Virus record (IMG/VR): IMGVR_UViG_3300006789_000086
Coordinates: 1-33,139 of that record
Origin: a virus
Strand: one strand, 5' to 3'
DNA: 33,139 nt
In this document: piece after piece, positions 3,386 through 19,071 of the stretch
How positions within the stretch are numbered: position 1 is the stretch's first letter
Layout of the letters: each line of letters starts with the position of its first letter
Translations under genes and position numbers: made by a program
The notes under the pieces: generated by a model
What the model was told of the DNA's origin: nothing
The model's database searches: none
What the model saw: the letters and a program-made list of their open reading frames with translations, nothing else

Positions 3386-3801
3386 GACACCTGATCCTTG
3401 TCGTACTCCTTGCGGCGCTCTCCTCCTCCTGCGTCGCTACCCGTGGTGACCTCACCGACATGTCCGCCGGCTTCGCTGACGCCTTCGCCAAGTTCGAGCA
3501 GCGGGCGGACGATGCGCCCACCCAGGCTGACATCGGCTTGGCTCGGGCCGAGCTGCTCGCGGAACTCAAGGGCACCGTGGACAAGACGGTGGACGCCATC
3601 GACGGGCGCATCGCCGATGTGGTAGCTACCGTGGACACCGTCAGCGAGAAGGTCGGCGAGGGCCCCATGGGGTGGCTCGAGCTGCTCTTGGGAGCAGCCG
3701 GCACGACGGTCGCCGGCGTCGGCGGGCTACACGTCCACCGGAACAGCACCCGCCGCCGCGACCTCGAAGTCCAAGAGCTGCGCAAGGCAGCTGGCCAATG
3801 A
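3382..3801 (+). CDS. Lipoprotein-like membrane protein, lysis/spanin candidate
   Basis: 139 residues from the ATG that overlaps the previous stop. The N-terminus MRHLILVVLLAALSSSC is a short signal sequence ending in a lipobox-like cysteine (C17; Ser at -3 is not the classical residue). Residues 20-95 are acidic, amphipathic and repeat-like (DLTDMSAGFADAFAKF, then TVDKTVDAIDGRIADVV), suggesting a long helical stalk. A second hydrophobic span lies near 101-120 (WLELLLGAAGTTVAGVGGL), followed by a basic tail (RNSTRRRDLE). A lipid-anchored protein with a C-terminal span beside a single-span protein suggests an envelope-disruption pair, but a classical outer spanin lacks the second span. Its stop overlaps the next ATG. 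Starts further upstream in this frame would run through the membrane gene and are unlikely. Confidence 0.75.
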   Translation: MRHLILVVLLAALSSSCVATRGDLTDMSAGFADAFAKFEQRADDAPTQADIGLARAELLAELKGTVDKTVDAIDGRIADVVATVDTVSEKVGEGPMGWLELLLGAAGTTVAGVGGLHVHRNSTRRRDLEVQELRKAAGQ

Positions 3802-4310
3802 TCGTCCTGGGTGTCGATCCCGGGTACAAGAACCTGGGCCTCTCTGTCCTGCGCATCGATGAGGAAGACTCGTCGAAGGTCGAGCTGCTGTGGTCGAAGA
3901 ACATGGCCGTTGGTCGAGCGACTGCACCGATGGCCTTCGCCAAGTTCCTCGTGCCTCGACTCGAGGCGCTGCACAGCGAGTACGGGCCCATCGAGGGCGT
4001 GGCCTGCGAGACCCCGCCCATCCTGCCCGGCAACATCAAGACCACTGCCTTCCTCTGGGCCGTGACTTCGATCATCGTGGGCTGGGCGCAGCAAAAGGAC
4101 ATGGCCATGCGACACGCCTCGCCGATCTCCCTCAAGCGAGGGGTCTGTCGTACCCTGGACATGCCCTGGGACAAGAGCTTCATCCCACGCAAGTCGCATG
4201 TGAAGAAGGCGGTCGAGGCGCTGCTCGGGACAACCAGCTCGACGTCGCACGAGAATGATGCCACCTTCATCGGGCTGCTCTTGTTCTCCAAGGCGGTGCC
4301 GGCGGCATGA
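3798..4310 (+). CDS. RuvC-like Holliday junction resolvase
   Basis: 170 residues, close to cellular RuvC length. The N-terminus MIVLGVDPGYKNLG carries the first catalytic Asp (D7) in the RNase-H-fold signature. E71 in ACETPP is the second acidic residue, and H151/D154 in SHENDATF match the C-terminal HxxD pair of RuvC. It would cleave four-way and branched DNA in the cytoplasm, clearing recombination or replication intermediates before packaging. The start is the ATG overlapping the lipoprotein stop; the longer upstream frame is Arg/Pro-rich and lacks family similarity. Its stop overlaps the next ATG. It sits among plus-strand late genes rather than in the minus-strand replication block, consistent with a packaging-linked role. 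Confidence 0.85.
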   Translation: MIVLGVDPGYKNLGLSVLRIDEEDSSKVELLWSKNMAVGRATAPMAFAKFLVPRLEALHSEYGPIEGVACETPPILPGNIKTTAFLWAVTSIIVGWAQQKDMAMRHASPISLKRGVCRTLDMPWDKSFIPRKSHVKKAVEALLGTTSSTSHENDATFIGLLLFSKAVPAA

Positions 4311-4729
4311 AGAAGCTCCACGTTGCGTCCAGGGTATCTCGGCTTGCCTACACCGGATGTGTGTTGGCAGACTTCGAGGTGAGGGCACTCAAACTAGATG
4401 AGCTGTTCTGCCCTGTGCGCCACGTGCAGACCTTCGTTGCGGGGGTACAGCGGTCCATCGACGAGAGCGGGCTACGGCATCCCGTGATCGTCGTGCGCAT
4501 TCCGCGTGAAGATCTGATCGCGCAGCACGAGCAATGGGGGACCACTGGGCGGTCTATCCCTGACCGTCCCTGGCTCAACGTGGTGTGCGGCGGCACGAAC
4601 CGGGTCGAGGCAGCACGTGGTCTGGGCTTCACGCACATCGACTGTCTCCTGGTGCCTGACTTCGACCTAGCCATGCGCATCCAGGAGCGACAACGGAGAA
4701 GCTATGTCCCAGCCCCAGCGCAAAAGTAA
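4307..4729 (+). CDS. ParB/Srx-fold domain protein
   Basis: 140 residues. Residues 26-60 set out beta-helix segments with SGLRHPVIVVRI, and residues about 92-112 read VVCGGTNRVEAARGLGFTHI. This matches the ParB-like nuclease/Srx signature, in which a G-G/N-x-R core is followed by an A-x-x-LG turn and a beta strand. In that superfamily the pocket binds nucleotide (CTP or ATP) or acts as a nuclease. This protein lacks the HTH of partition ParB, so chromosome or plasmid partition is unlikely. The ATG overlaps the RuvC stop, and the 3' end overlaps the next gene by 26 bases, so the three genes are probably cotranslated. Work on late DNA processing is an inference from context. Confidence 0.65.
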   Translation: MKKLHVASRVSRLAYTGCVLADFEVRALKLDELFCPVRHVQTFVAGVQRSIDESGLRHPVIVVRIPREDLIAQHEQWGTTGRSIPDRPWLNVVCGGTNRVEAARGLGFTHIDCLLVPDFDLAMRIQERQRRSYVPAPAQK

Positions 4730-5147
4730 GCCCACTGCCCCGAAGCTCGAGCGGTTGTCCTCACCTGAAGACATGGCGGTCGAGCGCTTCGGTAAGGTCG
4801 AAGGGCTGGCGATCATCCGGCTGAACACCCTCAAGCTGGCTGAACACTATGCCGAGCGGTACCAGCTGGACATGGCCGATCCAGAGGTCGCGGTGATCGC
4901 CTCCGCCCTGGCGTTTACACGCCACAAGCAGCTCATTCTCTTGTCCGAGGTCGAGGAAGACTTGTTCCGGCGGTCCCTTGGTTCTGCTGACGCGCAGGAC
5001 TACGGCCGGACGCTGTTCAAGGTGACCCAGGCCGGGACGCACAGGGAAATCCATCGAGAGATCGATCGCCTGCACTCCCGGGCCAGGGCCTACAGCAAGG
5101 AGCTACGCTACCTCGCTGACGACGCTAGTCGCGGGTCGGGCGACTAG
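4704..5147 (+). CDS. Helical protein of unknown function
   Basis: 147 residues, mostly helical and charged, with no recognised family. The start is the ATG at 4704, preceded by a GGAGA ribosome site about 5 bases upstream inside the end of the ParB-like gene. Segments such as EVEEDLFRRSLGSADAQDYGRTLFKVTQ and the Arg-rich HREIDRLHSRARAYSKELRYL could bind nucleic acid, but no helix-turn-helix can be assigned with confidence. It is the last plus-strand gene of this block and overlaps the convergent minus-strand gene tail-to-tail by 23 bases. A dispersed GTTTACACGCY site lies inside it (4913-4923). Confidence 0.75.
   Translation: MSQPQRKSKPTAPKLERLSSPEDMAVERFGKVEGLAIIRLNTLKLAEHYAERYQLDMADPEVAVIASALAFTRHKQLILLSEVEEDLFRRSLGSADAQDYGRTLFKVTQAGTHREIHREIDRLHSRARAYSKELRYLADDASRGSGD
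4913..4923 (+). repeat. Dispersed motif GTTTACACGCY, site 1
   Basis: GTTTACACGCC inside the helical unknown gene, read there as Phe-Thr-Arg. First of five copies found by eye between 4.9 and 12.6 kb. Confidence 0.75.
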
Positions 5148-5409
5148 ACTCGGTGTCGCACACGATCTGTGCGTTCACGGCGTAGCCGGCGATGTCCTGG
5201 AGGGTGTCCACCGACGGGTGGCCCTCCTGACTCCGGCTGATCTTCTGCAGGATGTTGAACATGCAGACGTCGAGGGGGTCCAAGGGCTTGCCTCCGTCCC
5301 GGTTGGCGAGGTAGGCATTCCAGAGGCGGGCGGTACGAGTGTGGTTGACGAAGGGGTGGCCGTACTCCTCGCCTCGCTCGTCGACGATCGACTGGATCTG
5401 GCCGCTCAT
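5125..5409 (-). CDS. DUF6378-like small phage protein
   Basis: 94 residues. The pattern RGEEYGHPFVNHTRTARLWNAYL followed by DVCMFNILQKISR and a C-terminal DTLQDIAGYAVNAQ resembles a small helical family common in phages (DUF6378-type), in which an ERGxxYGxP segment precedes two helices. The mix of His, Asp and Glu is reminiscent of MazG-like all-alpha NTP pyrophosphatases, but I cannot confirm metal-binding positions. The ATG overlaps the stop of the small gene upstream (ATGA). It is the promoter-distal end of the minus-strand block and converges on the plus-strand genes. Confidence 0.7.
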   Translation of the reverse strand: MSGQIQSIVDERGEEYGHPFVNHTRTARLWNAYLANRDGGKPLDPLDVCMFNILQKISRSQEGHPSVDTLQDIAGYAVNAQIVCDTESSRPTRD

Positions 5410-5564
5410 TGGTCTACCTCGCTGCCCTGCTCTTCCTGTCGGCGCTCATCCATGATGTGGGTGATGAGGCGGATCAACGAGAGCAGCGACACGTCAGGCA
5501 TTGCCTGGAGCTGCGTGACGAGCATCTTGGCAGAGGGCGACGGCTCAACGGGAGGGTTGCTCAC
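5406..5564 (-). CDS. Small unknown protein with a near-perfect Shine-Dalgarno
   Basis: 52 residues from a GTG start (VSNPPVEPSPSAKMLVTQ...), rich in Leu, Ile and Arg, with a helical core (VSLLSLIRLITHIMDERR) and an acidic tail. Support is translational rather than homology-based. AAGGAGGTG, an almost ideal ribosome-binding site, lies about 6-7 bases upstream of the GTG, and the stop overlaps the next ATG. The 5' end overlaps the 3' end of the Cas4-like gene in another frame. The function is unknown; it could be a small adaptor or inhibitor translated at high level. Confidence 0.7.
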   Translation of the reverse strand: MSNPPVEPSPSAKMLVTQLQAMPDVSLLSLIRLITHIMDERRQEEQGSEVDQ

Positions 5565-6441
5565 GGCACACCTCCTTGAACGCGCAGTAGCCTTTGCCGC
5601 TGCCTCGGCCGCAGAAGAAGTTGGCAGCGTCGTCGTGCCGCATGAGGAACTCCTCTCCTGGGTCCTCCTGGTTGGCTGCTGCCTCGAAGGCAGCGATCAG
5701 GCGGGCCTTCTCGGCCTCGAGTACGTCGGCCGTGACGAGGCGGGGCTTCAGGGGTTGGGTCAGGCTGTCCCGGTTGATGCCGGCCATGATCGCGCCGCTG
5801 CCCAGGCAGTCCACCCCGGGCGAGTCAGCGTAGACCGTGAGCTGGCTGATGTAGCCGAACCCATCGGGGTCGTGGTCGAACAGGGCCTTGCCGTGCTTTT
5901 TGAACCCGAACCCACCCATGCTCTTGAAGTCAACGAGCTGCTTGGGGTGCGCCTCGATGACGTCAGCTGCGAGGTAGTCCGCTGCCACTTCGCTGTCGGT
6001 GACCTTGAGCAGGGTGTCGACGGTGCCCTTCTGGTTGTACTTCATGGCGTCCTTGGGCCACCAGTCGGGCAGGGTGACCGGCAGCTCGTAGAACCCGACG
6101 AACCCGGGCGGCATGGCTGACTGGAGGGCAGCGTAGGAGAGCTGATGCAGCACGTGGCCGATAGCGAACGTGGTCCCGATGTTGTCGGGCATGTCGCCAG
6201 ACGGCTGTCCTTGGTGGGCGTAGAAGGTTTGCCGAGCGCAGGCCAGGAAGGCCGACGGCCGGATCACCTTGGCCTCGTTGCGCTGGGACATCGCGTCGAA
6301 GATCAGGCCGGGGATCTCGACGAGGGCGAGGTTCAGGGCAGCGGTGTCCATGTTCTTGATGGACAGCCCGTGGGTGTGAAGAGCCTGAACGAACTTGGCC
6401 CAGGTGGGGTAGGGCTTCGCCGGCTTGGGGAGGAAGGTCAT
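5545..6441 (-). CDS. Cas4/AddB-like PD-(D/E)XK nuclease with Fe-S cysteines
   Basis: 298 residues. The nuclease core shows G-T-V-D at D142, the VDFKS motif at D171/K173, and a QLTVY (Q200...Y204) helix, as in RecB-family PD-(D/E)XK exonucleases. One cysteine before the core (C68 in LACARQTFY) and three after it (C277, C286, C292 in FFCGRGSGKGYCAFKEVC) reproduce the 1+3 arrangement that holds a 4Fe-4S cluster in Cas4, AddB and Dna2. The expected activity is single-strand DNA exonuclease. In phages such proteins act in recombination or replication end processing. It is downstream of the polymerase and the candidate ssDNA-binding protein, separated from them by a terminator-like hairpin. No Cas1/Cas2 or CRISPR array is present, so an adaptation role is not supported. 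Confidence 0.85.
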   Translation of the reverse strand: MTFLPKPAKPYPTWAKFVQALHTHGLSIKNMDTAALNLALVEIPGLIFDAMSQRNEAKVIRPSAFLACARQTFYAHQGQPSGDMPDNIGTTFAIGHVLHQLSYAALQSAMPPGFVGFYELPVTLPDWWPKDAMKYNQKGTVDTLLKVTDSEVAADYLAADVIEAHPKQLVDFKSMGGFGFKKHGKALFDHDPDGFGYISQLTVYADSPGVDCLGSGAIMAGINRDSLTQPLKPRLVTADVLEAEKARLIAAFEAAANQEDPGEEFLMRHDDAANFFCGRGSGKGYCAFKEVCREQPSR

Positions 6442-6471
6442 AGGGGTATCTCTGTGGTCAGGTGTGGCAAC

Positions 6472-6507
6472 AAAAGCAAGGTGCCCCTCCGCAGAGAGAC
6501 ACCTTGC
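6472..6507 (-). terminator. Rho-independent terminator-like hairpin
   Basis: An 8-bp perfect stem (6476-6483 with 6500-6507, GCAAGGTG/CACCTTGC) carries a small inner CTC/GAG pairing. On the minus strand it is followed by TTTTGTTG. It lies in the 91-base gap between the candidate ssDNA-binding gene and the Cas4-like gene, so it would end or attenuate transcripts before the nuclease. The U-tract is short. Confidence 0.6.
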
Positions 6508-6532
6508 CCACGGTAGTCCGCTCGCTCCTGCC

Positions 6533-6943
6533 CTAGCGGGGCGGGGTGAAGCGGAACTCGTCCCAGTCGCCGAAGTCGCCCGTCTCGTGGAAGACGGACA
6601 CGTCGACGATCTCGCCGATCAGGTCACGGGGGGCCTTGGTGACGGCCACCTCCTTGTCGGGCCAGACCGCCTTCATCAGCTTCATGTAGGTCGAACGGGG
6701 GCCGTTGACCTCCTTGAAGTTGACGTACTTGGCGAGGTCGCCGTCGTAGGCGTCGCAGTCGAAGGTCACCAGGAGCCGGGCCTTGGTGCCCTTCTCCTTG
6801 GCCTGCTCGTGCGGCTCGAAGGCGCGCACGTCGACGATGGTGCAGCCGGGGTAGGAACCCTCCGGCGTGCGGGGTTTCTTTCCCTCGAACTCGTCCTCGG
6901 TGAGGGTGGTGTTCAGCAGGGCATCGGGGTCGAAGTCACTCAT
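6533..6943 (-). CDS. Beta-rich protein, candidate ssDNA-binding protein
   Basis: 136 residues. After an acidic N-terminus (residues 1-20) comes PEGSYPGCTIVDVRAFEP and then a run of alternating hydrophobic strands (KARLLVTFDCDAYDG, IVDVSVFHETG), with an aromatic/basic middle (YMKLMKAVWPDKEVAV). The PEGxYxxxIxDV opening recalls small phage proteins of recombination modules (DUF669-like), some of which act as ssDNA-binding proteins. I cannot show an OB fold from sequence alone. Its position directly after the polymerase and its coupled neighbour supports a replication accessory role. The function is an inference. Confidence 0.75.
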   Translation of the reverse strand: MSDFDPDALLNTTLTEDEFEGKKPRTPEGSYPGCTIVDVRAFEPHEQAKEKGTKARLLVTFDCDAYDGDLAKYVNFKEVNGPRSTYMKLMKAVWPDKEVAVTKAPRDLIGEIVDVSVFHETGDFGDWDEFRFTPPR

Positions 6944-6945
6944 GG

Positions 6946-7158
6946 TTAGTCGTCGGCTCTTGGGCCGCTCTCCGCTTGCTTGAGAATGTCTAGGAGGGAA
7001 AAACCGCTGTCGCCGGCAAGGGGTTTAGCCCTCAACAGCTTCTCTACGGCACCAGCCAGGGCCTCCCTTTCCCTGGGTGTTCTTTCGTCCATCTCCGTCA
7101 GGAGCTTGCGCACCTGTCTGTCGATGATGGTCTGGATCGTTTGATCGTCGTCGTTCAT
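6946..7158 (-). CDS. Small helical protein coupled to DNA polymerase
   Basis: 70 residues from the ATG that overlaps the polymerase stop (ATGA). An upstream start four codons earlier would lie inside the polymerase and is less likely. The sequence is charged and helical (IIDRQVRKLLTEMDERTPREREALAGAVEKLLRAK), probably coiled-coil, with no known motif. The tight coupling suggests it is made in proportion to the polymerase, and it could be an accessory or processivity factor. No family was recognised. Confidence 0.75.
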   Translation of the reverse strand: MNDDDQTIQTIIDRQVRKLLTEMDERTPREREALAGAVEKLLRAKPLAGDSGFSLLDILKQAESGPRADD

Positions 7159-8846
7159 GCGTCGCCCCATGTGGGGCCAGTCGTCGCTTCGGCGGTAAAG
7201 CGTACCGCACCAAGGGCCTCGGGGAAAGCGCTGTTCGCTGCTTCCTCCATAACCTCTTGGACCGCCTGGGCTTTGGTTGCTGACACTCCTCCGGTCAGCA
7301 CCTCGTCGTGGACCGAGAGCAAGGGCTCGTGGCCTGCCCCCTCAACCGCGACCAGCGCCTTGCGCATGATCTCGGCAGCGGTCCCTTGGACCCGCATACT
7401 GATCCCCGGCCGGGTGTCGTCGTTGCCTCCGAAGACTCGGGTGCGCCCACCTTCGTTGCGGACAATGAAGTACGCTGCCGCCTCCTGCCAGACCCCGCCC
7501 ATCCACTCGTTGAGGTGATGTAGGTTGGTCAGGTAGTCGTCGAGGAACCGCTGTGCCTTGGCCTTGTGGACCTTCAGCTCGATGGCCAGTCGCTTGGCTC
7601 CCATCCCGTTGAGGATGCCGAAGTTGACCGCCTTGGCCCCGAACCGCTCTTCGTCGGTGATCTGGTCAGGGCGTTTAGACAGCATGACAGCCGCCACCTC
7701 GCGGTGCGGGCACCGACCAGCGGCGAAGGCTTCGAGGAGAACGGGCTCGTTGGCCAGGGCCGCAGCCACCCGTAGCTCCACTTGGCTGTAGTCACAGGCG
7801 ATGATGCCGGTGTTGTCCGGCGAGGTCATGCACTGCCTGATCGCCTTGCCCACAGGCCCCCGCTTCGGGATCTGCTGAAGGTTCGGGTCAGCGCAGGAGA
7901 AGCGCCCGGTGACGGTCATGGTGCTCCGCGTCTCGGGGTACAGGATGCCGTCTCTGGCCTTCGCCGCCAGCGGCAGCGTGAACGACGACCGCAGCTTCAG
8001 GGTCTTGCGGTGCTCGACGATCGTTGCCACCAAGGCATCGCCGCCCTCGATGAGGCGGTTCATGGTAAGCGCGTTGGTGCTCGGCCGCTTGGTCTTCTTG
8101 GTTCGGGGTAGGGTTCTCCCGTTGGCCATGAGCCACTCGCCCACCTTCATCGGCGAGCGTACGGTGTCGGCATCGATGCCGGCTGCAGCCAGCTCGTCCT
8201 CCAGGGCAAGGATGCTGGCATCCACCTCGGCCTCGACCGCCGCCAGCCGCTCGGGGATCAGGCGCAGCCCACGGTTCTCCATGCGCAAGAGGGCTTGCTC
8301 GGTGCGCCAATCCTCGTCGCGCTGCTTGGCCCCGAACTTCTGGGCCATCAGGCTCGACACGAGCAAGTCGTTGGCGAGGTACTCACAGAGATCCTGCTCG
8401 GGTACCTCTGCAATCCTGCCCTGCTTCAGCAGTGCCGGCGTCGGGATGTTGGGCCACCCGTAGACTGCAGCCACGTGGTCCATCGACTTGCGGCCAGCGG
8501 TGTTCTTGTAGTAGAGAGGCAGCAGCGTGTCCCACCAGGGCTCGACCGGGATCAGGTCGAGGGCATGGAAGTCGAACCGCAGGTTGTGGCCGACGAAGCG
8601 AAGGCGTGTAAACACCTCCTCGAGTCCCCACTCCTCGTACTCGTCCCGGGACACGATGAAGCAGTGCTGCCCACCCAAGGGCATCAGGCCGATCCACCAT
8701 GCGTAGTGCTTGGCGTCGGGACCCCGGACCTCGAGCCCGTTGGTCTCGGTGTCCATGACCCATTGGGTTTCCGTACCGGCCCGGTCGATCACCTGCTTTA
8801 GCCGAGTCTCGTTGAGCCTGTGCCAGATGACTTCAGGGTTGCTCAC
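7155..8846 (-). CDS. Family A DNA polymerase with 3'-5' exonuclease
   Basis: 563 residues from a GTG start that overlaps the previous gene by 14 bases. Proofreading motifs are complete: ExoI D32/E34 (MDTETNG), ExoII N88/D92 (GHNLRFD), ExoIII Y156/D160 (YLAND). Polymerase motif A has D352 (CDYSQVELR), motif B spans R401 to G414 (RFGAKAVNFGILNG), and motif C has H513-D514-E515. There is no 5'-3' exonuclease domain, as is usual in phages. The position equivalent to E. coli Pol I 762 is Phe (F409). The position equivalent to Tyr766 is Asn (N413), which is unusual. It is the replicative polymerase candidate, encoded downstream of primase and helicase on the same strand. Confidence 0.97.
   Translation of the reverse strand: MSNPEVIWHRLNETRLKQVIDRAGTETQWVMDTETNGLEVRGPDAKHYAWWIGLMPLGGQHCFIVSRDEYEEWGLEEVFTRLRFVGHNLRFDFHALDLIPVEPWWDTLLPLYYKNTAGRKSMDHVAAVYGWPNIPTPALLKQGRIAEVPEQDLCEYLANDLLVSSLMAQKFGAKQRDEDWRTEQALLRMENRGLRLIPERLAAVEAEVDASILALEDELAAAGIDADTVRSPMKVGEWLMANGRTLPRTKKTKRPSTNALTMNRLIEGGDALVATIVEHRKTLKLRSSFTLPLAAKARDGILYPETRSTMTVTGRFSCADPNLQQIPKRGPVGKAIRQCMTSPDNTGIIACDYSQVELRVAAALANEPVLLEAFAAGRCPHREVAAVMLSKRPDQITDEERFGAKAVNFGILNGMGAKRLAIELKVHKAKAQRFLDDYLTNLHHLNEWMGGVWQEAAAYFIVRNEGGRTRVFGGNDDTRPGISMRVQGTAAEIMRKALVAVEGAGHEPLLSVHDEVLTGGVSATKAQAVQEVMEEAANSAFPEALGAVRFTAEATTGPTWGDA
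7673..7680 (+). repeat. Related motif GTTTAGAC, copy 1
   Basis: GTTTAGAC inside the polymerase gene. It differs from the GTTTACAC core by one base. Confidence 0.5.
8603..8613 (-). repeat. Dispersed motif GTTTACACGCY, site 2
   Basis: GTTTACACGCC on the minus strand inside the polymerase exonuclease domain, read as Phe-Thr-Arg. Confidence 0.75.
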
Positions 8847-9234
8847 CTTCCACCTCTCTTTCCCAGTGTGCGATCAGCTTGTCCAGCTGGAAGAGCCAGC
8901 TCGGCTGCTCACGGACGCTGTTGAGTTCCCGGATGTCCACCAAGACTTGAAGGTAGTGTTGGGAAAGGGTGTAGGGATCGCCGTACACTCCAGGCGAATG
9001 GTGCGCGCTGACCGGGCAGTCCAGTGCCCACTCTTCGTTGCTCTCCCCGTCGTCGCTCGGGCCGTAGACATCCGTACGGGTGTACGTGATCTTCAAGGGC
9101 TGGATCTCATCGAACTCACTGAAGCACGTCCAGCACATGCCGGCGTTGTAGTCCTCGTCGCAATGCTTACGGGGCGGATTGTCCGGCGGGTCGGGGGCCT
9201 TCCAGGCGTCGTAGCCAACGGGTAGGTCATTCAT
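8833..9234 (-). CDS. Unknown protein with Cys cluster
   Basis: 133 residues from the ATG overlapping the previous stop. An in-frame upstream start would run through the neighbour and is not favoured. The N-terminal third has HCDEDYNAGMCWTC, a possible metal-binding set, but no partner Cys pair further along except one Cys (ALDCPVS). The C-terminus is helical (HYLQVLVDIRELNSVREQPSWLFQLDKLIAHW). No family was recognised. It is translated just before the polymerase, overlapping its start. Confidence 0.7.
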   Translation of the reverse strand: MNDLPVGYDAWKAPDPPDNPPRKHCDEDYNAGMCWTCFSEFDEIQPLKITYTRTDVYGPSDDGESNEEWALDCPVSAHHSPGVYGDPYTLSQHYLQVLVDIRELNSVREQPSWLFQLDKLIAHWEREVEGEQP

Positions 9235-9599
9235 AGTGTTACCTCGGCGTTGGCGTACATGTTGTCCATGGGGTCCTGCGTGCCGTGGCACGCCTCGTTG
9301 GCGCACTCCAGCAGGAGGGACGGCTCGAACACTTCGACTAGGAAGGAGAGGGTTGCCTCCGGTCCCAACCTGCGGGCGGCGCTCTTCAGGTCGGCGGCGA
9401 TCGCCGTCGGCTCGACGGCGGCGGGGATCAATTGTGCTTCAACCTGCTGTCGCCGGAGGTCGAGGTCGTGGGCGGCGGTGGCCAGGGCATGTAGCAAGAC
9501 GGGTTGGTCCACGCCGAAAGCCGCATCGGCAAGGGCCTGGAGTGACTCGACGGCAAGGGAGAGGAGGCGGGCGTGGTGGCGGATCTGGTTGGGCTTCAT
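9231..9599 (-). CDS. Alpha-helical protein of unknown function
   Basis: 122 residues from ATG 9599 (MKPNQIRHHARLLSLAVESL), with AGGA about 9 bases upstream. It is almost entirely helical and Ala/Leu-rich, with a GPEATLSFLVEVFEPSLLLECANEA segment near the C-terminus. The end reads AEVTL, as does the end of the gene two positions upstream (9884-10408), hinting at a repeated coupling sequence. The stop overlaps the next ATG. No family was recognised. Confidence 0.7.
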   Translation of the reverse strand: MKPNQIRHHARLLSLAVESLQALADAAFGVDQPVLLHALATAAHDLDLRRQQVEAQLIPAAVEPTAIAADLKSAARRLGPEATLSFLVEVFEPSLLLECANEACHGTQDPMDNMYANAEVTL

Positions 9600-9633
9600 G
9601 GCTGGGGTCCTACGGGTGAGGGTGGCGGGTGTT

Positions 9634-9882
9634 TCAGATGCTCCAGAACGTGGTCTCACCGATCGAGTGGACCCCGGGCATAGCGGTTAGGAAGGCATGG
9701 GCCATGTCTTCGGTAGCCTCGGGGGACCAACGAGACCAAAGCTCCAGAGTAGTGGGGCGGAGGAGGTAGGGCGAGCTCCCGGTGGGGTCGGGGGTTTCGA
9801 GGAAGTAGGTGATCCAGCCACGGGTGACGATGGGCTGGGTACGGTCGGGATGGTAGAGGGTGGTTTGGATGGCGGAGGTCAT
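9634..9882 (-). CDS. Small unknown protein
   Basis: 82 residues. It is aromatic-rich with a mixed beta pattern (RGWITYFLETPDPTG, LELWSRWSPEATEDMAHAFL), and ends in GETTFWSI. The ATG begins just before the stop of the upstream gene is cleared (1-base separation), so it is probably translationally coupled. A 34-base gap separates it from the next gene. No domain was recognised. Confidence 0.65.
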   Translation of the reverse strand: MTSAIQTTLYHPDRTQPIVTRGWITYFLETPDPTGSSPYLLRPTTLELWSRWSPEATEDMAHAFLTAMPGVHSIGETTFWSI

Positions 9883-9883
9883 G

Positions 9884-10408
9884 CTACAGGGTTACTTCAG
9901 CGTGAATGACAGGCGCGATGCGCCCATCGGGAAGGGAAAGGCCATGCTCGAGGAAAGCGTTTACACGCCCCCCGTTGGCCTGCGGGTCGCCCGGCTCGAA
10001 CGCCTGGGCCATGATCCACTCGTGTCCCTTGCAGGCAAGGAACTCGGGGATCGGGTAGTCATGGGAGTTGAGCAGCTGCCACCCTACATCGACCCACTTG
10101 ACCTCCAGGCGGACAGGCGCCCAAGGGGTGCCTCGCAGCCAATGGTCTTCGAGGCGACGCCAAGCTCCAGGGCGTACCGGCTTGTCGTTGAGCAAACTCA
10201 AAGGCCCCGGGTCGAGGCGCAAGGTGTAGCCTCGCCGCCTGTGTAGACAGGCCAGGAACGGCGCCTGTCTCGACAGCGCTCGTTGGGGCAGCGCGGTGAC
10301 AGGAGCCTCGCCCCAGTTGGGCACGGGGCGAGCAGTGTTCGCCTTGCGCAGCGCCTTCGCTTGAAGCATGTTTACACGCTCCGTGAGTTGTCGTAGGTAG
10401 TGGCTCAT
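9884..10408 (-). CDS. Basic unknown protein following the helicase
   Basis: 174 residues. The N-terminal 60 residues are basic and helical (YLRQLTERVNMLQAKALRKANTA), and the rest is mixed (PGAWRRLEDHWLRGTPWAPVRLEVKWVDVGW). The ATG overlaps the helicase stop, so the two are coupled. Two GTTTACACGCY sites (9959, 10370) lie inside it. It contains no P-loop and no known nuclease motif. A helicase partner or loader is possible only by position. Confidence 0.65.
   Translation of the reverse strand: MSHYLRQLTERVNMLQAKALRKANTARPVPNWGEAPVTALPQRALSRQAPFLACLHRRRGYTLRLDPGPLSLLNDKPVRPGAWRRLEDHWLRGTPWAPVRLEVKWVDVGWQLLNSHDYPIPEFLACKGHEWIMAQAFEPGDPQANGGRVNAFLEHGLSLPDGRIAPVIHAEVTL
9959..9969 (+). repeat. Dispersed motif GTTTACACGCY, site 3
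   Basis: GTTTACACGCC on the plus strand, inside a minus-strand gene that reads it as Arg-Val-Asn. Confidence 0.75.
10370..10380 (+). repeat. Dispersed motif GTTTACACGCY, site 4
   Basis: GTTTACACGCT on the plus strand near the start of the gene after the helicase, read on the coding strand as Arg-Val-Asn. Confidence 0.75.
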
Positions 10409-11523
10409 ATCGGGAGTCGGGCTCGGAGGGTTCGGGGTACGTGGAGCCGACGCCTTGCCCGAGTCAACATGACATAGAGCAGGCGGACAGTTTGCGGCTC
10501 GCGTCGTTCAAACCGCTCGAGTGCCACCCGTGACCAAGGGAGCAGGTAGACGTCATCGGCCTCCGCTCCCTTGGCAGCGTGCCCCGTGGACAGGACTAGC
10601 TCCTCGTCGGCTCGGCCTACCTTGGGCACGATGCCTGTGCCCCGCAGGCCCCAACCACGGAAGGCCTTGGCCACCGAATGCCGAGAGTAGCCGAGCACGA
10701 GGCCACGGCGGGGCGGGCTGTCGGGTCGCCACGTGAGCAGCTGGGTGCTGTGGTCGGCCCGGAACGTCGCCGCCGGCCGGTCGTAGTAGGACCGCAGCGC
10801 AGCCGCAGCCACCGACGCCACGTTGTCGCCGACACGCCAGCCCTTGTTGAGCACCTCGGTCTCGTCGGCGCGTTGCCAGACAGGCGGCAGCTGTGCCCCC
10901 TTCATCCCCTTGCTCTCGCCGAAGATAGCCTGTCCCGGGTCGCCGAAGGTCCAGACGTTGCCGTCTGCCTTCACCAGTGCAAGGGCCGCACGAAGCTCGG
11001 TCCAGCTCATGTCCTGGGCCTCGTCGATCATCAGGCAGTCGTACTTCTCGGCCTCGGGTACCGGGGCACCGTCCTCCAGCCAGCGAGCCAGCGGGAGCAG
11101 GTACTTGATCGGCCCCTTGGGCAGCTCGCTGTCGAGGTCGAAGGGCGGGTCACCATCGCGCCAGTCGTGCAGCGCCTTGGCCATGAAGTCGAGTTGGTCT
11201 CGAGCCCGACGGCTGGGTGCGTCCAGGAGGTACTGATCGAGGGCCGTGTCGAACAGGTGGTGGATCTTCCGGGCAGTGTACGCTCGGTTCGAGTAGGCCA
11301 CCCCTGCCTTCGCCCCCTTCAGGTAGTCACGGACGTACGGCCACGTCAGCGAGTACACTGTCCCTGATGGCACGTCAGGTGCCCGTTGCTGTAGGACAGC
11401 CGCCGCATCATTGGTGTAAGTGACGACTGCCCCGTTCTCTGTGGTCCAGGCCGAAGCCTCTGCAACGATCCGCCGGGTCTTGCCTGTGCCCGGCGGTCCA
11501 TCAATCGCTACTACCCTCGGCAT
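10405..11523 (-). CDS. Compact SF1 (UvrD/RecD-like) DNA helicase
   Basis: 372 residues, about half the length of cellular UvrD. Motif I is GPPGTGKT (residues 9-16), motif II IDEAQD (166-171), motif III FGDPGQAIFG (193-202), motif V STGHAAKGAEADDVYLL (about 316-333) and motif VI RLLYVMLTRARRRLHV near 345-360. The accessory 1B/2B domains must be minimal. It would use ATP to unwind or translocate on DNA. It overlaps the 3' end of the PrimPol gene by 23 bases and couples to the next gene. No hexameric helicase was found in the window, so this may serve at the fork. Confidence 0.9.
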   Translation of the reverse strand: MPRVVAIDGPPGTGKTRRIVAEASAWTTENGAVVTYTNDAAAVLQQRAPDVPSGTVYSLTWPYVRDYLKGAKAGVAYSNRAYTARKIHHLFDTALDQYLLDAPSRRARDQLDFMAKALHDWRDGDPPFDLDSELPKGPIKYLLPLARWLEDGAPVPEAEKYDCLMIDEAQDMSWTELRAALALVKADGNVWTFGDPGQAIFGESKGMKGAQLPPVWQRADETEVLNKGWRVGDNVASVAAAALRSYYDRPAATFRADHSTQLLTWRPDSPPRRGLVLGYSRHSVAKAFRGWGLRGTGIVPKVGRADEELVLSTGHAAKGAEADDVYLLPWSRVALERFERREPQTVRLLYVMLTRARRRLHVPRTLRARLPI

Positions 11524-13093
11524 CCTTGTCCTCCTTGGCCTTCAACCTAACGTAGGTCTCGTACTGTGCCCCGATGAACTCTTGTGCTTCGTCAGGGAGC
11601 AGGGCCAACGAGCACACCATGACCTTCGCCTTGCTCTGCATGCCAACCAGGGTCTTGGTGCCGAGGAACTGACGGCACATCTTCTTGGTCTTGCTGATGT
11701 CGCCCAGCTGGGTCATCAGGATCTCTTGCAGGTAGGGCGACAGCACCAGCGAGGCCAAGCTCTCCTCTCCCTTGGGCCACACCACGAAGGGCACGGCCAT
11801 GCCGCTCGGTCGCTTCGCAGTCCAGGCTTCGAGGAAGGTCAGGTCGGCCGCAGCTGTCCTCGCCCACTCCTCGATGATGGTCCAGAAGCGCTCCTCCAGC
11901 GGGATGCCTAGGATGTCGACGCCCTTCTCTGCGTGCAGCATGAAGTCAAGCGCCCTTGCCCACCCAGGCTGGATGAACAAGGGGCTTCGGGCGACGGTGT
12001 CCAAGGGGGAGCCGGCCAGCGTGGCCAGGGCGGGCAGCAGGTTGCGCAAGTCGGCCAGAGCTGTCACCTTCTTGGCCTCGTTCCTGCGCTTCGCTGACCC
12101 GCCGAAGCCTACCAGTGTCTCCTTGAGCTTCCCTTGGCTGTCGAACACCTCGACCATCCAGGGCACGGCACCGAAGACGCCTTCGCACTCGGCCTTGACG
12201 TCAGTGACCGTAGGGTGTTTCTCCCTAGCTTGGTACTTCTCGCCGTTCTTGCTGCCGACTGACCAGCCGGAAGCGATAGCCGTGCGGAACTCCTTCTCGC
12301 TGAACTCGCCGAGCCGTGGCTTCAGGTGCTCCCACAGCCCAGGCATCAGCTCTTGATCTACCTGGGTGCCTGGATGCAGCCGGCCGAGCACTTGCCCCAC
12401 CTTGGCCACGAAGTTGTTGCGTCCCCCTTCGGGGATCGCCTCGGCCAGATGCTCAAGCAGACCAATGAAGTGGATCGCCTCGGTTGGCTTGCCCTTCTTG
12501 GTCTGGCGTGTCTTGCCCTGGTCCTTCCTGGCTACCAGCCGAGCGATCAGGACGTCCGGCGGGAAGGCGAGGCTCGAGGGCGTGTAAACGTCCCCCATCA
12601 CCGTCCGGTACTTGCCGGGCTTCTTCTGCTTGTTGGTGGCCAGGGAGTCGGGCAGCATGATGAGCCGCCGTGCCTTCGATGAGACCCGTACCTCGCCGGC
12701 CACCCCGTTGCCGAAGTCCACCGTTGCAGGCAGGCGCTCTGCCATCAGCTCGGGGGGCAGGCGGAACCATAGGTGGTAGCCACCCGACGGCGTTTCAACG
12801 AGGCCCATCGTGGGGGGCGGTGCCTCGCCAGAGGCCAGCCGAAGCCAAAGGTCGTCGAACGACATCCCGTAGGTGTCGAGGTCAAGGATCAGCAGGGGGA
12901 CCGGGTCACTCGATTGCGGACACAGTACCGCCCCGGTCCCCTTGGACTGGAGAAGGTGGGCATGGGCCAGCTCGTGGTCCTCATCGTCGATGAAGACATC
13001 GAACTCCTTGCCCCCTAGCTTGACGGGGTACTTGCGGCGTCCGGTGGTCGGGAAGACCCAGTAACCCTGCTCACTAAGAGCAAGGTGTGTCAT
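11501..13093 (-). CDS. PrimPol-type (AEP) primase
   Basis: 530 residues. Residues 1-190 fit the bifunctional primase-polymerase N-terminal domain: YWVFPTTGRRKYP opening, metal-binding DLD (D71, D73), SGGYHLWF (H107), and GEVRV (E134) before MLPDS. Residues about 215-285 (EGGRNNFVAKVGQVLGRLHPG, then EKEFRTAIASGW) resemble the PriCT-type primase C-terminal helix bundle. Residues 290-530 have no Walker A, so the usual fused helicase is absent, and I do not recognise this part. It would synthesise primers for the family A polymerase. The ATG overlaps the RHH gene stop (TGATG), suggesting the two are expressed together. Confidence 0.88.
   Translation of the reverse strand: MTHLALSEQGYWVFPTTGRRKYPVKLGGKEFDVFIDDEDHELAHAHLLQSKGTGAVLCPQSSDPVPLLILDLDTYGMSFDDLWLRLASGEAPPPTMGLVETPSGGYHLWFRLPPELMAERLPATVDFGNGVAGEVRVSSKARRLIMLPDSLATNKQKKPGKYRTVMGDVYTPSSLAFPPDVLIARLVARKDQGKTRQTKKGKPTEAIHFIGLLEHLAEAIPEGGRNNFVAKVGQVLGRLHPGTQVDQELMPGLWEHLKPRLGEFSEKEFRTAIASGWSVGSKNGEKYQAREKHPTVTDVKAECEGVFGAVPWMVEVFDSQGKLKETLVGFGGSAKRRNEAKKVTALADLRNLLPALATLAGSPLDTVARSPLFIQPGWARALDFMLHAEKGVDILGIPLEERFWTIIEEWARTAAADLTFLEAWTAKRPSGMAVPFVVWPKGEESLASLVLSPYLQEILMTQLGDISKTKKMCRQFLGTKTLVGMQSKAKVMVCSLALLPDEAQEFIGAQYETYVRLKAKEDKDAEGSSD
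12579..12589 (-). repeat. Dispersed motif GTTTACACGCY, site 5
   Basis: GTTTACACGCC on the minus strand inside the PrimPol gene, read as Val-Tyr-Thr-Pro, a third reading frame relative to sites 1-4. Confidence 0.75.
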
Positions 13094-13317
13094 CAGGCGT
13101 CGTCTTCAGGCTTGCGGAGGTTGGTGGTGGGGGACAGGCGGACTTCCCGCTGCTCAAGCTCGTCACAGTAGCAGCGGGCGGCGGAGCGCATGAAGCCAGA
13201 GAGTGACCTACCCGTCTGGTGGGCCAGCAGCTTGATGCGGTGGTATTCCTCGGGGGTCACGTTGACTTGCATACGGTGGCCACGGAGGTACTCGAACTCG
13301 GTGTGTTGGTTGGACAT
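13093..13317 (-). CDS. Ribbon-helix-helix DNA-binding protein
   Basis: 74 residues from ATG 13317 (MSNQHTEFEYLRG). A longer frame upstream would run into the palindrome and looks non-coding. Residues about 16-50 (HRMQVNVTPEEYHRIKLLAH, then GRSLSGFMRSAARCYCDEL) give the strand-helix-helix pattern of Arc/MetJ/CopG proteins: alternating MQVNV strand, TPEEY cap, and a G-R-S-L-S turn before helix 2. Such proteins dimerise and bind inverted repeats as regulators. The gene begins 23 bases from a 224-bp concentric palindrome, the obvious candidate operator, and its stop overlaps the PrimPol start. It may control the replication genes or mark an origin. Confidence 0.8.
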   Translation of the reverse strand: MSNQHTEFEYLRGHRMQVNVTPEEYHRIKLLAHQTGRSLSGFMRSAARCYCDELEQREVRLSPTTNLRKPEDDA

Positions 13318-13340
13318 GGGCAGACTGGCGGGTCGGATCG

Positions 13341-13564
13341 TAATAACGACCTTTCGAGCTATTGAATCGCCATAAATCCCCGCGCCGAAGGAACTTACGA
13401 CCGAAACGGGCAAAAACACGTTTGGCGCCCGTGCATTCTACACGGCAGGCCACCGCCGGTCCCGCGTCGGACGCGGCGGCGGAACGAAATCCGCCCGTTT
13501 CGGTCGTAAGTGCCGGAGCCACCGCCGCTTAGCGTCCGTTCAATAGCTCGAAAGGTCGTTATTA
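13341..13564. repeat. Concentric palindrome, 224 bp (26-bp outer and 19-bp inner arms)
   Basis: The outer arms 13341-13366 and 13539-13564 are perfect inverted copies, beginning TAATAACGACCTTTCG on the left. The inner arms 13393-13411 and 13493-13511 (starting ACTTACGACCGAAACGGG) are also perfect, and both pairs share the same centre near 13452. The core holds shorter palindromes such as CCGCGTcggACGCGG. The arms are AT-richer than the surrounding genes. It fills most of the 263-base gap between the RHH gene and the accessory genes. An operator, replication origin or mobile-element remnant are all possible. No target-site duplication flanks it (ATCG versus GCGG). Confidence 0.9.
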
Positions 13565-13580
13565 GCGGCGGCTCTTCAGT

Positions 13581-14249: not shown

Positions 14250-14668
14250 TAGAGACCCAGGGCCTTCGCCAGCACCTTGGCCTCTTGCGGTGGCAGCGTC
14301 GGGATCCTCCAGGCCAGCCGGACCTTCAGCTCTTGCCTCAAGAACGGGTCCTCGGCCATGGCCACGAGCACCGTGAGGCTGATGTTCGAGCCCGCATCTT
14401 GCGCTCGGTTGTAGTCACCGCTCTCGTCGTAGTCGCCGACGATCTTGATGGGGTCGCCGGCCCATCGTCCTACTACCTCGCCCGGGGGACCGTGGTAATC
14501 GCCGCCCACGCCCTCGCTGGCGCTGGACTGCCGCAGCAGAAGGGTCAGCGCAGTCATGGCACCGTGGCTGGACGTCCCTAGCTCGAGCAGCTTGGCCCCG
14601 TCGCCGAAGTCGTGGGGGTGAATGTACTCGTTCTTAGCCTCGTTGAAGATCAGGAAATACTGTCCCAT
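14249..14668 (-). CDS. Conserved hypothetical protein (MGQYF family)
   Basis: 139 residues from the ATG in the TGATG overlap; a GTG one codon upstream is possible. The opening GQYFLIFNEAKNEYIHPHDF, then GDGAKLLELG, and the middle GRWAGDPIKIVGDYDES match a family I recognise as an uncharacterised protein scattered through bacteria, including actinobacteria, and their phages. Members share an N-terminal YxHPHxFGDGxKLxE block and a WAGDxIxIxGDYD block. No catalytic role is known to me. It is coupled on both sides. Confidence 0.7.
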   Translation of the reverse strand: MGQYFLIFNEAKNEYIHPHDFGDGAKLLELGTSSHGAMTALTLLLRQSSASEGVGGDYHGPPGEVVGRWAGDPIKIVGDYDESGDYNRAQDAGSNISLTVLVAMAEDPFLRQELKVRLAWRIPTLPPQEAKVLAKALGL

Positions 14669-14967
14669 CACTTGAACCTCGCTTCGGGGAGGATGACCAC
14701 AGGACCCACGATCGGGTTGGTCTGACTGCCCAGCAGGTAGGTGCCGATGGGGTTCTTCTCGAGCCCGTGGATCAGCCCCTCCTCGTTGACCACGGCGAAG
14801 TACACAGGGCAGCTGTTGCGGTTGACCTGATGCAGACCCAGGGGGATCAGGGCGATCATGCCTTCGACTACCTCTTGTAGCTGCTTCAGGCTGAAGGTGC
14901 CGTCAGCCTCGGCTGGCTTCGGCATAGGGGTCACCGTGCCGTCGGTGTTCAGGATGTAAGAGTCCAT
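14668..14967 (-). CDS. DUF3846-like protein
   Basis: 99 residues. The arrangement of a short strand (YILNTDGTVTPM), a helix (SLKQLQEVVEGMIALIPLG), YFAVVNEEGLIHGLEKNPIGTYLL and a final IVGPVVILP matches DUF3846, a small family on plasmids and phages. The conserved N-E-E-G, N-x-x-x-T and G-P-V-V positions are present. The function is unknown. There is no Shine-Dalgarno upstream; the leader is C/A-rich (CAACCGCAACCACAATG), like that of the beta-helix gene at 18642. Confidence 0.75.
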   Translation of the reverse strand: MDSYILNTDGTVTPMPKPAEADGTFSLKQLQEVVEGMIALIPLGLHQVNRNSCPVYFAVVNEEGLIHGLEKNPIGTYLLGSQTNPIVGPVVILPEARFK

Positions 14968-14984: not shown

Positions 14985-14992
14985 GTCTAAAC
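14985..14992 (-). repeat. Related motif GTTTAGAC, copy 2
   Basis: It covers the stop codon of the SANDT-family gene; followed by ATCC. Confidence 0.5.
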
Positions 14993-15277
14993 GAACTGCC
15001 CCACCACGACGAAGTAGCAGGGGTGATCTTCGGGGAGCTTGTCCTTCAGGTGGTCGCACACGATCGCGTTGACCTCGTGAGCACCAGCTTTGCACTCATA
15101 GCCATTGACGGCGATGTCATACAAGCCGTTGGTGTCGTAGGAAGCGCGGAACCTCCGTCCTTCCAGCTCGGAGCAGGGCCAGCGTCCGTCGCTTGGCCCA
15201 TAGCCAGCCGCCCAGTTGGCGGTATCGTTGGCGCTAAGCCAGAGGGTCAGGGAGTCACCGTTGTCAATGAGTCTCAT
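14987..15277 (-). CDS. Conserved hypothetical protein (SANDT family)
   Basis: 96 residues. LWLSANDTANWAAGYG, WPCSELEGRRFRASYDTNGL and a C-terminal NAIVCDHLKDKLP form a pattern I recognise from an uncharacterised family widespread in bacterial accessory DNA, in which an SAxDTxxWA opening is followed by a WPCSxLxG motif. The function is unknown. A GTTTAGAC site covers the stop codon (14985-14992). Confidence 0.7.
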   Translation of the reverse strand: MRLIDNGDSLTLWLSANDTANWAAGYGPSDGRWPCSELEGRRFRASYDTNGLYDIAVNGYECKAGAHEVNAIVCDHLKDKLPEDHPCYFVVVGQFV

Positions 15278-16288: not shown

Positions 16289-16494
16289 CAGTCGGTCCTC
16301 CCGGTGTGCTCACGAAGCAGCGCCTTGAACAGGTCGGGGTTGGTACTCTCGACGAAGTACAGCAGGCCACGCAGGACGGCCGGCTCGAGGGCGATCTTGT
16401 CGGTGCCTTGGGCCCGCAGGTCCAGCACGTAGGCGTACCCATCGTAGGTGATGTACACCCCGTCGCCGATGTAGTCTTCTGGGGCTTTGTCCAT
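16288..16494 (-). CDS. Small conserved phage protein (YIGDGVY family)
   Basis: 68 residues from ATG 16494, which overlaps the SprT stop (TGATG). A longer frame upstream lies inside the protease. YIGDGVYITYDGYAYVLDLR followed by DKIALEPAVLRGLLYF matches a very small family I recognise from phages and bacterial accessory regions, with an invariant GDGVYxxxDG and LEPxVL. The function is unknown. Confidence 0.7.
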   Translation of the reverse strand: MDKAPEDYIGDGVYITYDGYAYVLDLRAQGTDKIALEPAVLRGLLYFVESTNPDLFKALLREHTGRTD

Positions 16495-17066
16495 CAGGAT
16501 TCCTCCATTCGTTCGTTGTTGCAGGGACAGATCGGCGGGCCGTAGAGGCCCAGCCACTTGCTCGTAGTTCGGGCGGTGTACCCACATTGGGGACACTTCA
16601 CCTTCAGCATCCGTGACCCGACGCTGCCCCGTGGCTGCACCGTCACGCCTGGGTGATCGTACTCGCCGAGCCGTTTAGACATCGTTGTCAGCACCTTGTT
16701 CAGGTCTTCGCCGACAGGGGTGGATGTCATTGGGGGCTCGAAGCCCAGCTCAAGTGCCACCGTGCGGAACTTCCCACGGTGCCCCTCCTTGTTCCCCACG
16801 CTCACATGCACCAGCTCATGCAGAAGCGTACTCAACACCTCGATCGGGTTGGTAAGCACAGGGCTGATGTAAACGTGTGCTCGCTTCTTGTCTCCGCTGG
16901 AAGCCTTGTCCCAGCATTGGCCGATGGCGGTGGCCTTCTTCCCGCGCTTCCCCTTCGGGAACCCCACAGACACCAAGGGTTCCTCGAACGGAGAAGCGTC
17001 TGCGCAGCCCACCACCCGCTTCGAGAGCAGGTAGGTGGCCTTGCGCAGCCACTCCTCGCGTCGCAT
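16494..17066 (-). CDS. SprT-like zinc metallopeptidase
   Basis: 190 residues. The catalytic HELVH (H83, E84, H87) is followed by H96 in the KEGHRGKF segment, the HExxH-plus-His arrangement of SprT/Spartan proteases. C158 and C161 (CPQCGY) and C180/C182 (CPC) form a C-terminal zinc ribbon of the SprT type. Spartan relatives cut proteins crosslinked to DNA, and bacterial SprT roles are less clear. A phage copy next to small regulators could remove host proteins from DNA or counter a defence protein. The start ATG at 17066 is the only good one. Confidence 0.85.
   Translation of the reverse strand: MRREEWLRKATYLLSKRVVGCADASPFEEPLVSVGFPKGKRGKKATAIGQCWDKASSGDKKRAHVYISPVLTNPIEVLSTLLHELVHVSVGNKEGHRGKFRTVALELGFEPPMTSTPVGEDLNKVLTTMSKRLGEYDHPGVTVQPRGSVGSRMLKVKCPQCGYTARTTSKWLGLYGPPICPCNNERMEES
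16673..16680 (+). repeat. Related motif GTTTAGAC, copy 3
   Basis: Inside the SprT-like gene; followed by ATCG, nearly as in copy 2. Confidence 0.5.
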
Positions 17067-17069
17067 GAC

Positions 17070-17330
17070 CTAGGCCTTGACCAGTTCGTCGAAGGCCGAG
17101 CGGCGCGGCACCACCTTGGACTTGAAGACGTTGCTCCAGCCGAGGAAGTAGTCGGGACGGGTGTCCATCAGCCGGCACAGCTTCTCGAGCAGGCGCGGGC
17201 TGGGGGCACTGCGCCCGGTCTCGAGGTTGGTGATGGTCGTGCCGGTGACGTCACAGGCAGCGCCGACAGCGGCTTGGGTCATGCCCAGCTTGGTGCGGCG
17301 TTCCTGCAGCCGCTCGGAGAAGACACTCAT
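17070..17330 (-). CDS. XRE-family HTH transcriptional regulator
   Basis: 86 residues from ATG 17330 (MSVFSERLQERRTKLGMTQA). A clear Cro/C1 helix-turn-helix runs from residue 5 to 60: ERRTKLGMTQAAVGAACDVT, then GTTITNLETGR and PSPRLLEKLCRLMD. A short tail (FKSKVVPRRSAFDELVKA) follows. A TTAGGTACT leader lies just upstream. It is the best repressor candidate in the early block and could be the reader of one of the dispersed motifs; that link is inference. The gene ends 3 bases before the SprT start. Confidence 0.88.
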   Translation of the reverse strand: MSVFSERLQERRTKLGMTQAAVGAACDVTGTTITNLETGRSAPSPRLLEKLCRLMDTRPDYFLGWSNVFKSKVVPRRSAFDELVKA

Positions 17331-17361
17331 GGGAGTACCTAAGGGTAGGGAGTTGGGTTGG

Positions 17362-19063: not shown

Positions 19064-19071
19064 GTTTAGAC
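19064..19071 (+). repeat. Related motif GTTTAGAC, copy 4
   Basis: In the gene-poor stretch before the stem-loop array, the only copy outside a gene. Confidence 0.5.

Follow-up and report, generated by a model that had tools for sequence, protein, structure and literature searches.

The uncultivated marine phage sequence IMGVR_UViG_3300006789_000086 (33,139 nucleotides, analyzed over its whole length and hereafter called the window) carries a short pseudo-palindromic word, GTTTANAC, repeated through its genes, and the same word recurs in unrelated phages that encode one form of a SprT-like zinc metalloprotease. The repeated word is real and is held by selection on the DNA. From the joint distribution of word and protein among genomes, we consider it likely that a SprT-like protein encoded by the phage itself binds at these dispersed sites; it would most likely be an autoregulated transcription regulator.

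An earlier note on this sequence had described five copies of an 11-mer, GTTTACACGCY, in the early region, and had likened them to stoperators, the asymmetric repressor sites spread through the genes of cluster A mycobacteriophages. All five copies are present (sites 1 and 3–6 in Table 1), the reversed pattern is absent from the window, and 3000 synonymous-codon shuffles yielded a mean of 0.12 copies and a maximum of 2. Translated, two copies read FTR, two RVN and one VYT, spread over three combinations of frame and strand, so that neither protein conservation, as the note had argued, nor codon conservation is the cause. The actual unit is shorter and broader than the 11-mer: GTTTA[C/G]AC, with C in front and GC behind. 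This definition adds four sites of the form GTTTAGAC (sites 2 and 7–9), and the resulting nine sites of yCGTTTA[C/G]AC(gc) compare with a mean of 1.46 and a maximum of 4 in 2000 codon shuffles. Nine of the 12 GTTTA 5-mers in the window, and 10 of 13 in its lineage, are full motifs. The supposed asymmetry did not hold, as the core is palindromic at every position save one (T/S at 3/6); GTTTANAC is pseudo-palindromic with C..G flanks, and GTTTAAAC is fully palindromic in several phages.

The window and the contig G001 (IMGVR_UViG_3300025133_000252, 41,265 b) are 99.9–100% identical across all of their overlap and represent two cuts of a single circular map of about 41.7 kb, with G001 filling in the part of the map that the window lacks. 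On this contig 9 of the 10 sites fall within 37% of the length (p = 0.0009), which largely bears out the claimed confinement to the early region. The phage has no close isolate relative: bacterial genomes searched for a prophage relative gave none, nor did searches for a related isolate phage via primase or capsid, and the window had no matches in Rfam and tRNA searches. The relatives used below, which share about 50–70% protein identity, were gathered by searching with DNA polymerase, PrimPol, helicase and terminase.

In most relatives the leading 8-mer in unprompted counts, or one of the leading few, is GTTTAGAC, GTTTACAC or GTTTAAAC, with usage that follows clade (yCGTTTA[CG]ACgc in the window's clade, YGTTTANAC in its sister clade), and single-base variants of the motif are mostly at background level. 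Moreover, the sites are conserved in position. Pairs of genomes about 80% identical keep 9 of 11, 8 of 10 and 6 of 8 sites, against 0.2–0.3 for control 8-mers, and G015 and G016 (73% identical) keep 7 of 9, against 0.08. Of the checks that the note had proposed, the counts in the window thus exceed those of codon-shuffled controls, and conservation at synonymous positions, assessed among relatives, holds there. At larger distances the sites turn over: where identity has fallen to about 70%, most relatives retain none of the four sites of the window's lineage that can be aligned. In the window's family they lie mostly in coding DNA, where they take up rare codons, among them 3 of only 10 TTA codons in G013 and 3 of 20 TTT codons in G001, and no orientation relative to gene direction is preferred (27 the same, 21 opposite, in four genomes); in G019 the strand bias of sites is 13:2. 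Expectation-maximization motif finding drifted onto codon periodicity. As a separate observation, GTTTAA ranks first or second by enrichment among the coding 6-mers of G011 and G013 (53 vs 14; 30 vs 6.7), and GTTTAAAC is scarce in the clade of these two genomes (clade A; 1 vs 15 expected over five contigs); GTTTAA was rejected as a second site word there, its conservation not being clearly above controls.

Within the family, the motif tracks a single gene. A SprT gene is encoded by all seven near-complete relatives with at least 10 sites (G001, G011, G013, G015, G019, G020, G025) and by none of the six with 0–3 sites (G018, G023, G027, G028, G029, G048; Fisher p = 0.0006, phylogeny not corrected). 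When all open reading frames were profiled, SprT was the top family and the only well-conserved gene present in 7 of 7 motif-rich and 0 of 5 motif-poor genomes. Because G018 and L162 are nested within motif-bearing clades, SprT and motif were lost together more than once. The window's protein, predicted to consist of an N-terminal zincin (HExxH) domain and a C-terminal zinc ribbon, matches phrog_6361 over its full length (E = 1.2e-37, residues 1–189) and PF10263 at 21.5 bits, under the 25.6 cut-off. Residues H83, E84 and H87 of the HExxH motif are invariant in an alignment of SprT proteins, and an AlphaFold model (pLDDT 80) places strands 153–157 and 164–168 and a helix in the zinc-ribbon part.

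The association extends beyond the family. SprT-like relatives were found in 163 phage records, mostly annotated simply as 'SprT-like protease', and unrelated phages of Arthrobacter, Microbacterium, Streptomyces, Methylophilales, Burkholderia and Acinetobacter among them carry the same word. We counted strand matches, so that palindromes count on both strands, in a first set of nine unrelated SprT phages. In six, GTTTANAC lies far above its reversed pattern (Percival 18:0, YesChef 26:2, Venkman 70:2, Intolerant 42:0, Alexa 21:5, Mica 14:2); of the others, Dismas and Armstrong have none and CN1 has 2:2. De novo counting ranks the word first or second in all six motif-bearing phages. For instance, GTTTACAC occurs 14 times in Percival (0.3 expected), 26 times in YesChef (0.9) and 40 times in Intolerant (1.8), and GTTTAAAC occurs 34 times in Venkman (2.1) and 15 times in G059 (0.3). 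Only SprT is common to all nine motif-bearing genomes compared (G058 included), with DNA polymerase reaching 5 of 9; since the phages were selected for SprT, this comparison rules out any other common reader encoded by the phages and is in itself no proof of SprT. Among the six SprT-less controls, motif and control counts were 2 vs 5 in Jasmine, 7 vs 19 in MD-2021a and 5 vs 2 in ctEqG8, with no motifs in Zuko and Soos. The sense of the sites' strand bias differs between phages (SuMoo 3:13, VroomVroom 15:3, Cen1621 24:4).

The motif also follows particular residues of the protein. In an alignment of 43 SprT proteins, most motif-bearing phages have KKQ[GST]TR[ML]xK followed by a CxxC zinc ribbon, giving the signature [GST][ST]R[ML]xK in the C-terminal zinc ribbon, which takes the form GSR[ML]LK in most of the window family. 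The SprT proteins lacking the signature (Dismas, Armstrong, CN1, G061, L220) all come from phages without the motif. In G058 (L242, L243), whose protein reads QKTYMLK with R changed to Y, GTTTACAC is replaced by CTTTACAG, found 15 times against 0.6 expected. From the signature alone we predicted presence or absence in ten further phages and recorded the predictions ahead of counting. All ten were correct, including the expected sixth base, three of them weakly: SuMoo, Zeta1847, VroomVroom and Cen1621 have 16, 23, 18 and 28 sites (controls 0), and Eden, PSA20 and BAjuniper, predicted to lack the motif, have none.

The placement of the sites points to regulation. The start of the SprT gene carries a site in all 12 annotated phages, against about 0.5 expected. 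The site lies 16 bp upstream in Mica, 17 in Alexa, 18 in Persinger and Cen1621, about 19 in KA2-1 and ep3, 35 in VroomVroom, 37 in YesChef, 50 in SuMoo and 72 in Intolerant, and just within the annotated start in Percival and Venkman. In Venkman, where nearly all sites are in the early half, 21 of 36 touch gene junctions (8% of the sequence), as do 8 of 13 in YesChef (12%) and fewer, 2 of 6, in Percival. Sites at the SprT start and at gene junctions form the pattern expected of an autoregulating regulator with stoperator-like sites. We infer that the SprT-like protein binds the DNA physically, its zinc-ribbon strand [GST][ST]R[ML]xK reading the pseudo-palindrome GTTTANAC. It would dock at roughly 10–40 marked places per genome, which in the window's family are densest among early genes and in many phages include the start of the protein's own gene, where docking would give autoregulation. 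Docked protein may then block or tune early transcription in the manner of stoperators, by repression or as a roadblock, and the protease part might serve for self-release or for removing other DNA-bound proteins.

Several results weigh against this interpretation. In the window's family the SprT start has no site, the nearest in the window being 393 bp inside the gene, and 8 of 10 sites are in coding sequence, which is odd for operators. Foldseek found no significant match of the protein to any DNA-binding zinc ribbon. The SprT-less phage VEN has 8 sites (10 strand matches) vs 2, a mild exception across all variants. As for the advance predictions, ep3, KA2-1 and Persinger have just 4, 7 and 4 palindromes and are weak by count, and several of the ten phages are close kin of those from which the rule was found.

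Cluster A stoperators are the nearest known system by behavior. They are 13–14 bp long, lack dyad symmetry, are oriented with transcription and are bound by an immunity repressor, Rep (PMC6550527, PMC9283540). Phages such as L5 and Bxb1 carry 20–30 through the genome, many outside promoters, and there, as with the proposed reader here, site and reader co-vary between relatives; the number is roughly matched by 9–10 sites in the window's lineage and 7–40 in others. The likeness drawn in the note thus stands for number, dispersal, early-gene bias and, by inference, for a role as protein sites on DNA, and fails for asymmetry, fixed orientation and the proposed binders. In contrast to cluster A, the core here is an 8-bp pseudo-palindrome free in orientation, and the reader, putatively a zinc-ribbon SprT-like protein, probably differs too. 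It is possible, if rather doubtful, that the sites are true stoperators, immunity repressor sites of a lysogenic program with SprT as the repressor. Besides the dispersal and the autoregulatory site, the AZ phage YesChef and the EH phage Percival encode serine integrases and share a SprT gene (PMC8758107). However, site orientation is not fixed, the window's family yielded no integrase in Pfam and PHROG scans, and Venkman ranks among the phages richest in sites though no integrase is annotated in it.

The absence of a SprT-start site from the window's family, together with its mostly intragenic sites, makes protease docking a main rival. SprT would still read the sites, but as docking or activation points from which a DNA-activated protease strips host, defense or crosslinked proteins, early genes first. 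HExxH is intact in all copies examined, and the sites are sharply defined, free in orientation and located in coding DNA. The SprT/Spartan proteins SPRTN and Wss1 likewise join an HExxH zincin to a zinc-binding C-terminal part, and eukaryotic SPRTN is a DNA-linked, DNA-dependent protease that resolves DNA-protein crosslinks (PMC5127644). The papers found describe no sequence-specific site set for SprT/Spartan proteases. The gene-junction sites of Venkman and YesChef and the site at SprT's own start look regulatory, however, and we regard docking as unlikely to be the explanation.

Another phage protein, or a host factor, might read the sites with SprT merely linked to that reader, as phylogenetic profiles give association and not binding. 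We think this quite improbable, given that SprT is the sole protein common to the unrelated motif-bearing phages, that their hosts range over Actinobacteria and Proteobacteria, and that the motif follows SprT zinc-ribbon residues. The two binders proposed in the note were rejected. The XRE protein is confined to the window's lineage and missing from every other motif-bearing relative; HTH_3 was found in 1 of 12 genomes, in scans that included no search aimed at cluster A Rep. The RHH gene also scores in the gene profile by BLAST, yet every genome has it in synteny, the motif-less G018 among them, and in the window the strand expected to contact DNA is different. Also rejected was a sigma-like 'DNA binding protein' encoded upstream of actinophage SprT, because Dismas and Armstrong carry it without having the motif and the window family does not encode it. 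In the ImmR/ImmA (ICEBs1) and DdrO/IrrE systems, a DNA-binding regulator works with an HExxH protease. A comparable XRE-SprT gene pair exists in the window lineage only; unlike in those systems, DNA reader and protease here would be one polypeptide.

Being exact and dispersed in coding DNA, at about one per 2–4 kb, the sites could also be Chi-like recombination or priming sites, or nick sites of the kind known from T5 and phiKMV-like phages. A Chi word is specific to the host RecBCD or AddAB, whereas this word is the same in phages of Arthrobacter, Streptomyces, Acinetobacter, Burkholderia and Methylophilales, and its sharing between phages of Actinobacteria and Proteobacteria disfavors Chi-like and host-factor readings alike. 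With both strands used, an early bias, and a tie to SprT rather than to a recombination gene, such functions are very improbable. Chance, or codon and composition bias, is refuted by the codon-shuffle nulls, the conservation and the reversed-pattern controls, even though the 2-mismatch family is just mildly enriched in the window.

Table 1. Motif sites and candidate reader genes in the window.
Feature	Sequence	Position	Strand	Remarks
Site 1	gGCGTTTACACGCCa	4913..4923	+	Inside gene 4704-5147
Site 2	CGTTTAGACa	7673..7680	+	Inside DNA polymerase gene; not matched by the earlier 11-mer
Site 3	GTTTACACGCC	8603..8613	-	Inside DNA polymerase gene
Site 4	CGTTTACACGCC	9959..9969	+	Inside gene 9884-10408
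Site 5	GTTTACACGCT	10370..10380	+	Inside gene 9884-10408
Site 6	CGTTTACACGCC	12579..12589	-	Inside PrimPol-like gene
Site 7	CGTTTAGACa	14985..14992	-	Junction of genes 14668-14967 and 14987-15277
Site 8	CGTTTAGACa	16673..16680	+	Inside SprT-like gene
Site 9	CGTTTAGACc	19064..19071	+	
SprT-like zinc metalloprotease, C-terminal zinc ribbon (phrog_6361)		16494..17066	-	Proposed site reader
GSRMLK codons, residues 150-155 of SprT-like protein		16602..16619	-	Signature tracking the motif across phages
XRE/HTH_3 gene		17070..17336	-	Directly upstream of SprT gene; candidate binder in the earlier note
RHH (NikA-like) gene		13093..13317	-	Candidate binder in the earlier note

Some further features were noted. 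Upstream of the RHH gene, a non-coding region (13318–13570, minus strand) holds two perfect inverted repeats, of 26 and 19 bp, one nested in the other, the outer right arm spanning the sequence immediately before the RHH start, and its predicted RNA fold has -134 kcal/mol (z = -6.7). Shorter arms occur upstream of RHH in relatives G012, G011 and G005, and the region is possibly an origin, a regulator or a structured leader. A second small HExxH protein (HEWGH; G006 6721–7056 and homologues) is encoded upstream of the primase gene in relatives, overlapping or following the RHH 3' end in most of them; the window is without it. A conserved trio on the plus strand (3792–5147) comprises a RuvC-like resolvase, a protein that resembles ParB by eye though it has no Pfam hit, and an unknown protein of 147 aa, and in Dismas a gene annotated as ParB-like nuclease follows the SprT gene.

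We found no described role for the phage 'SprT-like protease' of the 163 records. The cluster AZ paper lists it among shared genes, and its main text contains neither 'motif' nor 'repeat' (PMC8758107). Among the matches listed by literature searches, neither a phage motif GTTTACAC or GTTTAGAC nor a SprT repressor appeared, and we found no report of a site set or DNA-reading role for phage SprT, many subscription journals lying outside the search. Judging from the genomes compared, we think there is probably a widespread, unrecognized class of phage regulator, in which a SprT-family metalloprotease is itself sequence-specific, its zinc-ribbon strand reading GTTTANAC, an address repeated dozens of times per genome, and which controls early transcription or clears proteins from phage DNA in many lineages of Actinobacteria and Proteobacteria phages. 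If SprT proteins do read GTTTANAC, the 163 annotations would turn into a regulatory system whose sites are known and which could be tested cheaply, AZ and Microbacterium phages being already in culture. Actinophages with an integrase, for example those of cluster AZ, would gain a candidate repressor, and the system would be a clear instance of a site changing in step with its reader and of a protease fused to the reader of its own DNA address.

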